The translations under genes and the position numbers were made by a program. Source: Desulfitobacteriaceae bacterium (lineage in GTDB: Bacteria > Bacillota > Desulfitobacteriia > Desulfitobacteriales > Desulfitobacteriaceae). Taken from it: DNA of 38,452 nt. The notes beneath the pieces were generated by a model. The model made no database searches. It saw only the letters and a list, made by a program, of their open reading frames with translations, and was not told the DNA's origin. Shown here piece by piece: positions 16,870 to 23,573 of this stretch. The stretch lies in the NCBI GenBank assembly GCA_028704155.1, contig JAQVLN010000009.1, positions 1 to 38,452 on the forward strand. The letters are read 5' to 3'. The number at the start of each line of letters is the position of its first letter. The stretch's first letter is position 1.

Positions 16870-17871
16870 TTAGTCTTCACTCGGTTGGGGCAGCCAGCTC
16901 ATCATTGCACGTAATTCCTTACCCACTTTTTCAAGAAGCTGGTTTTCTTCTTTACGAGCAACTGCATTAAAGGAGGGACGATTTGCTTGATTTTCCAATA
17001 ACCAGGCTTTGGCAAATTGACCGGTTTGAATTTCTTCTAAAATCTTTTTCATTTCCTGACGGGTTTCTTGAGTAACAATTCTCTTACCGGCAACCTGATC
17101 GCCATATTGGGCAGTATCGGAAATGGAATAACGCATACGGGTTAATCCGCCTTCGTACATAAGGTCAACAATTAATTTCAACTCGTGAAGACATTCGAAA
17201 TAAGCAATTTCAGGTTGGTAGCCGGCTTCAACCAAGGTTTCAAAACCTGCTTTAACAAGTTCACTGGCACCACCGCAAAGCACTGCTTGTTCACCAAATA
17301 GGTCGGTTTCGGTTTCTTCAGCAAAAGTAGTCTCCAGAACACCGGCTCTGGTTGCGCCTATTCCCTTAGCATAAGCCATAGCCAGGTCTTTTGCTCTTCC
17401 TGTAGCATCCTGGAATACTGCAATCAAAGCGGGTACGCCAGCACCCTCGGTATAAGTACGTCTTACCAAATGGCCGGGACCTTTTGGGGCAACCATGAAA
17501 ACGTCAACATCTTTAGGAGGTATAATTTGTCCAAAATGAATATTAAAACCATGAGAAAAGACCAATGCTTTACCTGCGCTAAGATAAGGTTTGATATCAT
17601 TAATATAAACTGCACTTTGTCTTTCATCAGGTAATAAGATTTGAATAATATCAGCCCGTTTGGCTGCTTCAGCTACAGTAAGAACCTCAAAGCCGACACT
17701 TTTCGCCTGTTTCCGGCGAGCCTCATTCAATTCTGCAATAACCACTTCAAGCCCTGAATCTTTTAGATTCTGGGCTTGGGCATGACCTTGACTGCCATAA
17801 CCCAGCACTGCTATTACCTTACCTTTCAATAAGTCCAGATTGGCATCAGCGTCATAAAACATTTTAGCCAT
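16870..17871 (-). CDS. ilvC: Ketol-acid reductoisomerase
   Basis: NADPH-dependent isomerisation and reduction of acetolactate or acetohydroxybutyrate. The 333-residue class I enzyme begins [18 protein letters not shown] and has the dinucleotide motif [13 protein letters not shown], the block [12 protein letters not shown], and the metal-site [15 protein letters not shown]. The start at 17871 is preferred: AAGGAAAGGAAG lies nine bases upstream and the family starts here; upstream in-frame ATGs at 17880 and 17901 would place that site within or at the start of the gene. It lies 114 bases after ilvN with a hairpin between them. Confidence 0.97.
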
Positions 17872-17914
17872 TAAATTCATCTTCCTTTCCTTTTCCAACA
17901 TCTTCTTATAGCAT

Positions 17915-18470: not shown

Positions 18471-20132
18471 CTACCTCCCTAGCATATCAGTAATCGCATT
18501 ACCCGGTACAACCATTGGTAAAACTACTTCATCAGGTGAAATAACAAAGTCCATAAGAACAGGACCAGGGTAGGCCATTGCCTTTGTTAAACAGGGTTTT
18601 ACATCCTGAGCTGAAGTAACCCTGATTCCTTTAATCCCATAAGCCTCAGCAACCTTAACAAAATCAGGATTGGCATGAAGCTGAATTTCACTAAAACGTT
18701 CATCATAAAACATTTTTTGCCATTGTCTTACCAGTCCTAATACTCCATTATTCATTAGTACAATTTTAACCGGAAGTTGATGCTGAACTATAGTGGCTAA
18801 CTCCTGAATCGTCATTTGCAGGGAACCATCCCCTGTAATCAGGACAATATTCTTTTCAGGTTGGGCAACTTGAGCCCCGACTGCGGCAGGAAGTCCAAAA
18901 CCCATTGTCCCTAAACCGCCACTGGTTACTAACTGCCGCGGATACTTGAATGGGTAACATTGCGCTACCCACATCTGGTGCTGTCCAACATCTGTTACAA
19001 TAACAGCATCATCCCCGGCTGTTTCAGCAATACTTTCCAGGATTATTTGCGGAGAGAGACGGCCGTCCTGCTCGTATCGCAAAGGATAACTTTTTTGCCA
19101 ACTGTGTATTTGCTCCCACCATTGGGTTATCTTGGGAGGAACCAGACGTGAAACTAATTCCTCTAAAACCAAGTAAACATCTCCAACAATAGGAACGTTA
19201 GCCCTTACGACTTTACCAATTTCGGCAGGATCAATATCTATATGCACAATTTTGGCTTTCGTGGCAAACTTATTTCCCAAGCCACTGGTTACCCTATCAT
19301 CAAAACGCACACCAAGTGCAATTAATAAATCACAATCATCCAGGGCATAGTTTGCTGTAACTGTGCCATGCATTCCTGCCATTCCTAAAAAATTAGGATG
19401 ATCAGAAGGTAAACATCCCAAACCCATTAAAGTAGAAACTACAGGCAAGTTACATTTTTCAACCAAATTCCTTAAGGGACCGGTCGCTCCGGCCCAGATA
19501 ATTCCTCCTCCGCCATAAATAACAGGTTTTAAGCTGTTGGCGATAGATTTGGCAAATTCCTCTATTTGTCCGGTATTTCCCTTGCCAAAAACCTTATAGT
19601 TTTTCAATGTCATTTTTGAAGAAGCCGTTTTTTTGACCTCCTGATTTAATATATCTTTGGGCAAATCAATTAAAACGGGTCCGGGACGGCCTGTCCGTGC
19701 CAAATAAAAAGCTTCTTTAACTATACGCGGAAGCTGTGCAGCATCTTTAACTATATAAGAATGCTTTGTTATGGGAATAGTTATTCCCGTAATATCAGCT
19801 TCCTGAAAAGAATCAGTGCCCAACAATTCTGTTGAAACCTGACCGGTTAAGATTACCATTGGTATAGAATCCATGTAGGCATTAGCAATCCCGGTAACCA
19901 GATTAGTAGCACCTGGGCCAGAGGTCGCCAAACATACACCTACTTTAGAATTTACCCGCGCATAACCATCGGCAGCATGTACGGCACCCTGCTCATGACG
20001 CACCAAAATATGCCGGATTTTACTTCTTAGTAAAGCATCCAGCAAAGCCAGGAGTACTGCACCCGGATATCCGAAAATGTCTTCAACTTCCTCTTGTTCC
20101 AATGCCTCTAATAATACTTCTGCCCCATTCAT
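18471..20132 (-). CDS. ilvB: Acetolactate synthase large (catalytic) subunit, biosynthetic type
   Basis: Thiamine-diphosphate enzyme that condenses pyruvate with pyruvate or 2-oxobutyrate. The 553 residues show the catalytic glutamate in VRHEQGAVHAADGYAR (about 45-60), the FAD-binding middle domain, and the thiamine-diphosphate motif starting at GDGSLQM and ending about 30 residues later in the NN pair of VLMNNG. The adjacent regulatory subunit and the operon context mark it as the anabolic enzyme rather than the catabolic AlsS type. It lies 31 bases after ilvD. Confidence 0.96.
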   Translation of the reverse strand: MNGAEVLLEALEQEEVEDIFGYPGAVLLALLDALLRSKIRHILVRHEQGAVHAADGYARVNSKVGVCLATSGPGATNLVTGIANAYMDSIPMVILTGQVSTELLGTDSFQEADITGITIPITKHSYIVKDAAQLPRIVKEAFYLARTGRPGPVLIDLPKDILNQEVKKTASSKMTLKNYKVFGKGNTGQIEEFAKSIANSLKPVIYGGGGIIWAGATGPLRNLVEKCNLPVVSTLMGLGCLPSDHPNFLGMAGMHGTVTANYALDDCDLLIALGVRFDDRVTSGLGNKFATKAKIVHIDIDPAEIGKVVRANVPIVGDVYLVLEELVSRLVPPKITQWWEQIHSWQKSYPLRYEQDGRLSPQIILESIAETAGDDAVIVTDVGQHQMWVAQCYPFKYPRQLVTSGGLGTMGFGLPAAVGAQVAQPEKNIVLITGDGSLQMTIQELATIVQHQLPVKIVLMNNGVLGLVRQWQKMFYDERFSEIQLHANPDFVKVAEAYGIKGIRVTSAQDVKPCLTKAMAYPGPVLMDFVISPDEVVLPMVVPGNAITDMLGR

Positions 20133-20163: not shown

Positions 20164-21846
20164 TTATTGATTATCACCAGTCTTAAACGCCGCTCCCCGT
20201 GCTGCTGACTGCACCATACGGGCATATCGGGCCAAGTATCCCTTTCGTTCGAAAGGTTTTTTATTCGGCGATAACTGTGGATCCCGGCGCCGTTTTTCTT
20301 TAGTTGCTTCATCTAATATCCAATCAATCCGGCCTTGCTGTAAATCAATCCTGATCCGGTCACCGGTCAGGACGTAGGCAATTTCTCCACCTAAAGCTGC
20401 CTCAGGTGAGATATGTCCGATAGACAACCCACGACTTGCCCCGGAAAAACGTCCATCAGTAAGCAAAGCAACACTGGAATCCAAACCCATACCCGCCAAA
20501 GTTGCTGTTGGCCCAAGCATTTCCCTCATTCCGGGCCCACCTTTTGGCCCTTCATAACGAATAACAACAACATCACCGACCACTATTTGACCACTTTGGA
20601 TAGCTATTGCTGCAGAATCCTCATTATCAAAAACTTTCGCTGTCCCTTCAAACACAAGATTTTGATCAGCTAAAGCCCCTTGCTTAATTACCGCTCCTTC
20701 AGGTGCCAAATCCCCGAAAAGAATCTTCAAGCCGCCTTTGGTAGAATAAGGCTGATCTAACGGACGAATAACCTCGGGATCGCTAACCTTGGCATTCCGT
20801 AAACGTTCTGCCTGGGTCACACCGGATACAGTCATTACGGAGCCATCAAAAAGACTTGCCTGAATCAGTTGATTCAGAACTGCACTTACTCCTCCTGCCA
20901 AATGCAAATCAGTTAAATGCTGGTCCCCGGCAGGACTGATCTTACAAATTTGCGGTGTACTTTCACTTACTTCGTTCACAATATTTATATCCCAGGCTAA
21001 ATTGGCTTCCTGAGCGATTGCCGGTAAATGTAGAATAGTATTTGTCGAACACCCCAGGGCCATATCAAAGGCCATTCCATTTAAGATTGCTTTATCTGTG
21101 ATAATATCACGCGGTTTTAATTCCTGCCGGAAAAGCTCTACAATCTGATAACCGGTTTCTTTGGCTAAAACCAAACGCTGTGAATAAACCGCCGGAATCG
21201 TGCCATTACCAGGTAAGGCCATACCAAGAGCTTCGGTCAAACAATTCATGGAGTTAGCTGTGAACAGACCTGAACAGGAACCGCAGGTCGGACAAGCTGA
21301 AGCTTCCAGTTCTTTCAGCCATTCTTGATCATTAAGTTTAGCATGTACTCGTCCAACACCTTCGAATAAAGTACTCAGGCTAACATCCCTGTCCTCAAAG
21401 CGTCCGGCCAACATGGGGCCGCCACTGACAAAGATAGCCGGTAAATTCAAGCGCAAAGCCGCCATTAACATCCCAGGCACAACCTTATCACAACTCGGGA
21501 TAAATACCAAAGCATCCAGTTGATGTGCCATAGCCATTACTTCTACGGAATCTGCGATTAATTCCCTGCTGGCCAGGGAGAAATGCATTCCTTCATGACC
21601 CATAGCCAAACCATCACACACTGCTATACACGGAAACTCAAAAGGTGTCCCGCCATTTTCCCGGATACCGGCTTTAACTGCCTCGCAAATTTGACGTAAA
21701 TGCATATGTCCGGGAACTAATTCATTAAAAGAATTAACTACGCCAATAAACGGTTTGACAATTTCCCGATCAGTAAGACCCAAGGCTTTAAGGAGTGAAC
21801 GATGTGGAGCCCGATCTACTCCTTGCTTAACTTTATCACTATTCAA
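20164..21846 (-). CDS. ilvD: Dihydroxy-acid dehydratase
   Basis: Iron-sulfur enzyme that dehydrates dihydroxyisovalerate and dihydroxymethylvalerate to the 2-oxo acids. The 560 residues carry the cluster cysteines in [10 protein letters not shown] and [19 protein letters not shown], and the C-terminal [11 protein letters not shown] block. The start is TTG with GGAGGGG about six bases upstream; the predicted N-terminus ([19 protein letters not shown]) matches the family. It is the first complete gene of the operon, but a 17-codon frame with its own ribosome binding site lies about 45 bases upstream. Confidence 0.97.
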
Positions 21847-21892: not shown

Positions 21893-21946
21893 TCAGTTAT
21901 ACGGAAAGATTTCCGGTACGAATTCCCCGTTGCAATAGCTAATCAT
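21893..21946 (-). pseudogene. 17-codon stub resembling the N-terminus of a branched-chain aminotransferase
   Basis: A minus-strand ATG at 21946, preceded at 11 bases by GAGGAAGG, opens the frame MISYCNGEFVPEIFPYN and then stops. The segment NGEFVP after a short hydrophobic/aromatic start is typical of the first strands of fold-type IV aminotransferases (IlvE/PabC, often YxNGEFVPxEEAK). ilvE commonly stands first in clostridial ilv-leu operons. I infer a truncated ilvE start that kept its translation signals. A genuine leader peptide is possible, but the sequence is not enriched in Leu, Ile or Val. In-frame codons run open upstream to 22126. Confidence 0.4.
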
Positions 21947-22020: not shown

Positions 22021-22096
22021 TGCAAAAAATAAAAACGAAAAACCCTGCGCAGCTCCTTAATCGTGGAATCTTCCGCATGGGTTTCTTACCCACGGT
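22021..22096 (-). promoter_or_regulatory. Candidate transcription attenuator in the ilv leader
   Basis: Within the first about 130 bases after the predicted ilv transcription start, two exclusive hairpins share a strand. The first pairs CGTGGGT (22094-22088) with ACCCATG (22082-22076). The second pairs AAACCC(A)TGCG (22084-22074) with CGCAGGGTTT (22049-22040), ten pairs with one bulge, and is followed by TTTCGTTTTTATTTTTT, so it should terminate. The loop of the second is long (24 bases) and may itself fold (GGAA/TTCC). No T-box 14-mer or ykkC-type core was recognised, and the leader is too short for a T-box. The trigger that chooses between the folds is not visible. Confidence 0.55.
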
Positions 22097-22156
22097 CTTT
22101 AAGTACACTTGAAATATTAAGAACATAACCTAATATTTAATAATTATTTGCTATCT

Positions 22157-22185
22157 AGTTTATCTGATAGTACTTGCGCTGTCAA
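22157..22185 (-). promoter_or_regulatory. Sigma-A promoter of the ilv-leu operon
   Basis: A consensus TTGACA (22185-22180) with a 17-base spacer to TAAACT (22162-22157). Transcription should begin near 22150. The -35 box lies 16 bases from the -35 box of the divergent hom promoter, so one regulator such as CodY could affect both; no clear CodY box was identified. Confidence 0.85.
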
Positions 22186-22201: not shown

Positions 22202-22230
22202 TTGCCAAAACCTCAAAATACGTCTATAAT
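22202..22230 (+). promoter_or_regulatory. Sigma-A promoter of hom-apgM
   Basis: TTGCCA (22202-22207), a 17-base spacer and a perfect TATAAT (22225-22230). The start point should be near 22237, giving a short leader of about 44 bases before the hom ATG. Confidence 0.85.
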
Positions 22231-22280
22231 GTCCACTATAGATAAACAAATGTGCATATATCAAGGAGTGTGGTTCAAAA

Positions 22281-23573
22281 ATGTTAAACAAAGTACACTT
22301 GGGAATTTTAGGTTTAGGAACAGTCGGCAGTGGTGTTGTCAGTATTCTACAACAAAACGCTCAAGATATTCAAACCAGAACAGAATACGAAATCATTATT
22401 AAACGCGTATTAGTGCTAAATCCCAAAGAACCTCAAAAAATAACCGGGGATTTTGAACTCACCGATAAAGCAGATGACATTCTCCTCGATCCGGAAATAG
22501 ATATTATAATAGAAGTAATCGGTGGAATCGAACCAGCACGCAGCTTTATTCTGAAAGCCTTGCACAATGGCAAGCACGTAATTACAGCCAATAAGGATTT
22601 ACTGGCTCTTCACGGACAGGAATTATTGCAAGTAGCCAAAGAAGAAGGAAAAGATCTTTTTTTCGAGGCAAGTGTTGCCGGGGGAATTCCGATTATCGCA
22701 GCAATGAAACAGTCTTTGGCAGCAAACCGAATTTCCCAGATTATTGGAATCATCAATGGTACAACAAACTATATTCTCACCGCAATGGCTGATCAAGGGA
22801 GAGATTATCAGGAAGTTCTGGCTGAAGCCCAAAAACTTGGTTATGCCGAAGCTGACCCTACTTCAGATGTTGAAGGGTTGGATGCTGCACGAAAATTAGC
22901 GATCCTGGCTTCCATAGCTTTTAATTCACGGATTACGCTATCTGACGTTTATGTGGAGGGAATATCGAAAATTACCAGAGATGACCTTCTCTATGCTGCC
23001 GAACTTGGATCCACCATCAAACTTTTAGCAATTGGCAAGCATCAGGATGAAGGTATAGAAATACGGGTTCATCCTGCAATCATACCTAAAACTCATCCTT
23101 TAGCCTCTGTCAGTGGTGTATTTAACGCTATATATATTGTAGGAAATGCTATTGGAGAAACAATGTTTTACGGACGGGGAGCCGGGTCACTGCCAACCGG
23201 CAGCGCTGTTGTTTCAGACCTCATGCAAGTCATTCGTAACATTCAAACTAAATCATCAGCGGCAATCAATTGCTCCTGCTATCTGGATCTTCCGATAAAA
23301 ACATCAAGTGAGTTTTTTACTTCCTTCTATATTCGTTTACTGGTTATCGATGAACCTAAAGTTTTAGCTACTCTGGCATTATTGTTTGCGGAAGCAAATA
23401 TTAGTTTTGCCTCAATAATCCAGAAACCACGCGAAAACAAAGAAGCCGAGATAGTCCTGGTTACCCACCCTTGCCGTGAAGGTCAACTCCAGGAAGCCTT
23501 GGACTCAGTTCGAGCTTACAGTAAAGTCCTCAATATCAAAAATGTTATCCGTTTTGAAACAGATTCCCAATAA
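22281..23573 (+). CDS. hom: Homoserine dehydrogenase
   Basis: NAD(P)H-dependent reduction of aspartate semialdehyde to homoserine, the branch point to threonine and methionine. The 430-residue protein has the N-terminal dinucleotide fold (GLGTVGSGVVS), TANKDLLA, the catalytic-domain signature GGIPIIAAMKQ, NGTTNYILTAM and EADPTSDVEGLDAARK, and a C-terminal ACT domain (about residues 350-425) that usually mediates threonine feedback. AAGGAG lies 12 bases before the ATG. It is transcribed away from the ilv operon and followed after 23 bases by the apgM-like gene. Confidence 0.97.
   Translation: MLNKVHLGILGLGTVGSGVVSILQQNAQDIQTRTEYEIIIKRVLVLNPKEPQKITGDFELTDKADDILLDPEIDIIIEVIGGIEPARSFILKALHNGKHVITANKDLLALHGQELLQVAKEEGKDLFFEASVAGGIPIIAAMKQSLAANRISQIIGIINGTTNYILTAMADQGRDYQEVLAEAQKLGYAEADPTSDVEGLDAARKLAILASIAFNSRITLSDVYVEGISKITRDDLLYAAELGSTIKLLAIGKHQDEGIEIRVHPAIIPKTHPLASVSGVFNAIYIVGNAIGETMFYGRGAGSLPTGSAVVSDLMQVIRNIQTKSSAAINCSCYLDLPIKTSSEFFTSFYIRLLVIDEPKVLATLALLFAEANISFASIIQKPRENKEAEIVLVTHPCREGQLQEALDSVRAYSKVLNIKNVIRFETDSQ

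Follow-up and report, generated by a model that had tools for sequence, protein, structure and literature searches.

A stretch of 38,452 nucleotides from a Desulfitobacteriaceae bacterium (the window) carries, before its branched-chain amino acid genes, a leader RNA that is probably the expression platform of a ppGpp riboswitch (ykkC subtype 2a) without its aptamer, acting as a ligand-blind attenuator that holds the operon at a low constitutive level. At the level of sequence, comparison with related genomes shows that the leader is homologous to complete riboswitches, that its aptamer is lost, that P4, the terminator and a scrap of P2 are conserved in two species, and that such losses recur in other lineages.

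Architecture of the ilv leader

The leader lies on the minus strand and extends over about 300 bases to ilvD. The promoter, the remaining structural elements and the neighbouring genes are arranged as follows.

22157–22185, minus strand: ilv promoter, with −35 TTGACA (22185–22180) and −10 TAAACT (22162–22157); homologous promoter in relatives
22100–22110, minus strand: scrap of the 5′ strand of P2, AAGTGTACTTA, recognized by sequence comparison (AAGTGTACCTA in relatives and in the sister species G001)
22076–22094, minus strand: P4 hairpin CGUGGGU/ACCCAUG, the antiterminator (covariance model match, alignment and folds)
22065–22070, minus strand: GATTCC, 3′ strand of P1 (GTTCC in relatives; alignment)
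22024–22086, minus strand: intrinsic terminator, with the stem at 22086–22038 and the U-rich tract at 22042–22024 (folds)
21893–21946, minus strand: ilvE remnant, a 17-codon frame (sequence comparison; G001 has an intact ilvE at this site)
20164–21846, minus strand: ilvD, dihydroxy-acid dehydratase, the first intact gene past the leader (TIGR00110, 740 bits, above cut-off)
18471–20132, minus strand: ilvB, acetolactate synthase large subunit (TIGR00118, 802.6 bits)
16870–17901, minus strand: ilvC, ketol-acid reductoisomerase (PRK05479, 553 bits)
22281–23573, plus strand: hom, homoserine dehydrogenase, the divergent neighbour

The ilv promoter is sigma-70-like, with 10 of 12 consensus matches and a spacer of 17 nt, and would start the transcript at about 22150. 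Since hom is divergent, no gene lies upstream on the strand of the leader, and the terminator can therefore act on the ilv transcript only. The ilv promoter of relatives (L160, L036, L046 and others) contains two copies of a tandem repeat, one (TGTATCATATACACT) covering the −10 element and the other (TGTATTATAACAC) about 25 bases further on. This repeat is conserved before ilvE/ilvD across two families, riboswitch-free loci included, and looks like an operator. It is worn in the genus of the window (window 22175–22120), where control of the pathway seems to be loosening. The divergent hom promoter (TATAATGTCCACTATA...ACAAATGT, window 22202–22260, plus strand) is kept across the loci of relatives, including the bases past its −10 element, and this conserved region is possibly an operator.

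Folding bears out the proposal, made in an earlier sequence-only reading of this DNA, that the ilv-leu operon has an attenuator-like leader with two mutually exclusive hairpins, which have the strand 22086–22076 in common. The P4 hairpin consists of seven pairs (CGUGGGU-AAGAA-ACCCAUG) and lies exactly at 22094–22076, where that reading had placed it. The ten-pair hairpin that it described at 22084–22040, followed by a U-tract, is indeed a terminator, although a longer one: the actual stem runs from 22086 to 22038 and comprises about 18 pairs, interrupted by small internal loops, with a fold energy of −20.1 kcal/mol (z = −2.9 against shuffles). Just 1 of 200 shuffles equals its stability, and TTTTTCGTTTTTATTTTTT comes after the stem. 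The homologous terminator in the sister species reaches −22.8 kcal/mol (z = −4.8), and the fold of the whole window leader has a z value of −2.1, with equally good shuffles in 7 of 200 cases. On thermodynamics alone the terminator is favoured, at about −20 kcal/mol as against about −10 kcal/mol for P4. In the predicted terminated state, the scrap UACUUA (22105–22100) pairs with UGGGUA of P4 (22092–22087), forming a six-pair hairpin that is found in the folds of both species and tolerates a C-G to U-G change. The leader thus presents the elements of a transcription attenuator, namely a conserved antiterminator and a conserved intrinsic terminator, mutually exclusive and placed before the first gene.

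A search of the whole window against Rfam gave no family at gathering score, and a search of the leader up to E = 10 gave nothing except a chance snoRNA match. T-box leaders often control Firmicutes ilv-leu operons by antitermination. The window leader is too short to be one, and this candidate was rejected, in agreement with the earlier reading, as Rfam detects no T-box in the window or in the loci of 20 relatives. Leader-peptide attenuators of ilv genes (E. coli ilv, Corynebacterium ilvB-II, ilvB-OMG; PMC10272879) likewise place alternative hairpins and a terminator before ilv genes, but the window has neither a conserved frame that stops before the terminator nor an Rfam match to them. The frame opening at 22126 does run through the terminator, as had been pointed out in arguing that no leader peptide is present; in G001 it reads ATG TTC TGA and stops after two codons, and a leader-peptide attenuator was rejected because the frame is not conserved.

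Descent from a ppGpp-type riboswitch

Upstream regions for comparison were supplied by ilvD homologues from 40 genomes. In the window's family, ilvE-ilvD is driven in most genomes by a divergent promoter located between hom and ilvE-ilvD, and Desulfitobacteriaceae relatives carry complete ykkC-class leaders with a homologous promoter and the same P4 and terminator as the window. These leaders read GGAAGTGTACCTAGGGTTCCGG...CTGGTCCGAGCGGTACA...P3...TTACACCGTGGGTAGAAAAAGCCCGAGCGGAAAGTTCC, followed by the terminator. One of them matches RF00442 (Guanidine-I) over its full length with 52.5 bits (E = 1.3e-8; gathering score 63), and Rfam gives no match at gathering score in the loci of 20 relatives because ppGpp-type aptamers score under the Guanidine-I threshold. 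Among 14 complete aptamers, 99.5% of cells in P1–P4 pair, a proportion that falls to 52–57% when the partners are slid by one column. Both partners have changed in seven pairs of P1, P2 and P3, a count that none of 500 shuffles reaches. P4 is invariant in the complete copies and is supported by pairing and homology, not by covariation.

It has been reported that ykkC RNAs situated before branched-chain amino acid genes belong to subtype 2a, which senses ppGpp (PMC5912903), and that a G at one position of P4 (G96) marks PRPP aptamers, another base being found there in ppGpp aptamers (PMC6031431). This specificity site, whose position was set by alignment to RF00442, is A in all complete relatives, and we call their leaders putative ppGpp-type riboswitches. 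A covariance model that combines P4 with the P1 3′ strand, built from 14 sequences with the window among them, matches the window (G000:C70:22065-22101) with 47.5 bits (E = 1e-9). Of 74 genomes from the order, 45 are hit by the same model, in nearly every case at one site only, and a wider search across the class brought in no further genome that has the element.

The window shares with the ppGpp riboswitch its site before ilvE/ilvD, P4, the 3′ strand of P1, the 11-nt scrap of P2 and a terminator that also uses the P4 and P1 strands. It differs by deletions that have removed P3, the P1 5′ strand, the joining segment ACACC and all of P2 past these 11 bases. The P1 partner strand GGAA is lost, and GATTCC now serves the terminator only. 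J3-4 before P4 reads AAAGACC in the window and AAAGATC in the sister species, as against TTACACC in relatives, and the guanine-pairing C of this segment is missing. The four-way junction P1-P2-P3-P4 is incomplete and, in view of all these absences, the ligand pocket cannot form. P4 itself differs as well, its ligand-side bulged segment CCC-RAG having become CCC-AUG, which makes continuous, bulge-free pairing possible. What persists of the ppGpp class is a specificity site other than G (U in the window, the sister species and G009), uninformative without the rest of the pocket, together with the branched-chain amino acid genes downstream, ilvD-ilvB-ilvN-ilvC and further genes. The Guanidine-I riboswitch has the parent fold of the ppGpp type and is matched below gathering score by the aptamers of relatives, whereas the window leader is not matched. 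Elsewhere in the window's genome, a guanidine-I-class riboswitch is present (G000:C176:1197-1299, minus strand; RF00442, 82.6 bits, above gathering score).

The statement in the sequence-only reading that the leader has no ykkC/ppGpp core holds insofar as no complete aptamer is present, yet P4 and the terminator come from a riboswitch of precisely that type. Its further suggestion of an undescribed regulatory RNA is not upheld: the descent of the leader can be traced via relatives, and deletion of the sensor, not a new RNA class, best explains the missing ligand.

Conservation and recurrent loss

The sister species G001 carries an equally shortened leader. An assembly artefact is accordingly disfavoured as the source of the truncation, the same form occurring in the assembly of the sister species, and loss of ppGpp signalling was rejected as its cause since each of nine genomes checked carries a gene for a RelA/SpoT-type ppGpp synthetase. 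The deletion has the same form in both species; most simply, it predates their divergence, and purifying selection has acted on the shortened leader ever since. Between these two species of the genus, 72 of 78 aligned positions of the leader core agree (92%). Identity amounts to 58 of 63 positions in P4 and the terminator, 15 of 17 in the scrap and its joint to P4 (22110–22094) and 40 of 79 (51%) in the 3′ leader past the terminator; at fourfold-degenerate sites in ilvB, ilvN, ilvC and hom, it is 289 of 611 (47%). The difference between the core and the fourfold-site rate (p = 2e-17) answers the call for a check of both hairpins in relatives, which the leader passed, and on these identities the core is constrained rather than plain junk.

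The surrounding operon has been eroded in both species. In the ilvE remnant of the window, a CCGGA repeat marks the point where the first 12 codons are fused in frame to the last ones (MISYCNGEFVPEIFPYN). G001 mirrors this arrangement, with ilvE intact and ilvD cut to two C-terminal pieces (L047 4559-4896, minus strand); a second ilvD, 56% identical, is found elsewhere in its genome. The window's genome encodes another aminotransferase on contig C92 (357 codons, 31% identical to ilvE), which may replace IlvE.

Leaders with missing or decayed aptamers also occur in other lineages. In Acididesulfobacillus acetoxydans (G004), P1–P3 are gone and P4 and the terminator are kept, and the leader of its congener G012 is complete. 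G009 has lost P1 and P2 and keeps P3, P4 and the terminator. The aptamer of G018 is decayed, and genus g2 has no such leader at all. The breakpoints in G009 and G004 differ from those of the window. On a tree of ilvB and hom, which come from the locus itself and do not amount to a proper species tree (G001 and G009 have no rpoB match), G004 and G012 are grouped at 100% support far from the window's genus, so that at least two losses are independent. Acididesulfobacillus is at least one further lineage that separately lost its aptamer and kept P4 and the terminator. On the same tree, G009 and g2 fall near the window's genus, but g1, g2 and G009 are grouped weakly (39% support). G009 probably represents another separate loss; a single deletion for G009 and the window was rejected on the differing breakpoints, the window retaining AAGTGTACYTA of P2 and G009 retaining P3. 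The CCC-AUG change in P4 (AAG/GAG to AUG), common to the window's genome, G001 and G009, may be one event that preceded the different deletions.

A leader at L168 (G053), 399, looks complete but has lost the outer part of P2 with CTGGTCC, and its aptamer is possibly beginning to decay. Upstream of ilvE in the sister family f3 (L041, L043 and L044), other leaders have strong terminators (AGCCCG...CCCGGGUUUUUUU) and no aptamer match; in L044, the 5′ half of the terminator contains AUAGGACA, to which UGUCCUAU near the start is complementary. These leaders may likewise descend from the riboswitch by loss of the aptamer, or they may be attenuators of unrelated origin.

Function of the retained platform

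Binding of ppGpp stabilises P1 against the invading terminator and thereby leads to read-through (PMC10687018). In the ancestor of the window leader, bound ppGpp would have held P1 and P4 together and blocked the terminator, turning the branched-chain amino acid genes on in starvation. Deletion would have taken away everything that binds the ligand (P2, P3, the joining C and the 5′ strand of P1) and left the expression platform in place. P4 would then form as soon as it is made, and the terminator would afterwards invade and displace it, so that the majority of transcripts would terminate and a fixed share would read through. Once the terminator is formed, the freed 5′ half of P4 could pair with the leftover P2 strand, which would favour termination and yield the 1:2, 2:3, 3:4 geometry of classical attenuators, here arrived at by deletion. 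A ligand-blind brake is the simplest function that such a leader could have; its blindness to ligand, the direction of its effect and the fixed level of read-through are what we infer from the parts that remain.

Some observations count against this explanation. The terminator is the more stable fold on energy alone, and the comparison within the genus spans two species. The 5′ scrap, unpaired when P4 is formed, is also kept at 15 of 17 positions, which would suit an added switch rather than a fixed brake. After loss of the aptamer, the choice between P4 and the 1:2 hairpin with the terminator might have passed to a new signal, whether a small RNA, a different metabolite or an RNA-binding protein, the strands being the P2 scrap UACYUA (1), UGGGUA (2), ACCCAUGCGG (3) and the terminator 3′ half (4). 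The six-pair hairpin of the scrap with the P4 5′ half is possible in both species, P4 has been rebuilt to a continuous seven-pair hairpin in G000, G001 and G009, and the −10/+20 repeat is worn in the genus, where other control might have taken over. However, the leader yielded no ligand pocket, open frame or protein site that is conserved, the 1:2 hairpin is weak and the comparison spans two species only, and we regard such re-purposing as rather unlikely. The wider proposition, that platforms can outlive aptamers, that more than one loss has occurred in the family and that this genus rebuilt the orphan into a four-strand attenuator answering a new signal, is as a whole likewise rather unlikely. 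It also counts against the ligand-blind brake that ilvE (in the window) or most of ilvD (in the sister species) has gone from the genus, as would fit a decaying operon. Taken further, the leader would no longer matter and its structure would be left over from a recent loss, a view with which the worn promoter repeat, the absence of the whole leader from genus g2 and the decayed aptamer of G018 are also consistent. This is improbable given the 92% identity of the core against 47% at fourfold sites, which is not neutral and disfavours a relic, and given that ilvB, ilvN and ilvC are intact, with proteins 89–91% identical between the window and the sister species.

The genes, P4 and the non-G specificity position shared with ppGpp aptamers (PMC6031431) could also suggest a minimal ppGpp riboswitch that binds its ligand via P4 alone. 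This appears very improbable, as the P1 5′ strand, P2, P3 and the J3-4 ACACC with its guanine-binding C are missing, P2-P4 contacts and P1 belong to the known ligand-bound structure (PMC10687018, PMC6031431), and the bulged segment of P4 is able to pair continuously. The strength of the terminator and the conservation of the 5′ segment could also point to the terminated leader (about 110 nt) being itself a small RNA that acts elsewhere, which would account for the conservation; position and conservation are all that speak for this, the same terminator serves a cis switch in relatives, and we consider it highly unlikely.

The platform of a sensor-deleted switch, which from its sequence and folds the window leader is taken to be, retains the on/off hairpins and is unusual yet made of known parts. 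No description of aptamer loss with the expression platform kept was found in the open-access literature searched, and what appears new is a conserved aptamer-less platform whose counterpart in relatives, at the same operon, is still a complete switch. The full ppGpp-type leaders found there score under the Rfam gathering threshold and are not annotated by Rfam. A single family thus offers, at a single operon, a natural series from complete riboswitch to decayed aptamer, platform only and leader gone, in which the order of riboswitch dismantling can be studied. It also serves as a warning that loss of the sensor from a riboswitch may lie behind some ‘orphan’ attenuators for which there is no ligand.
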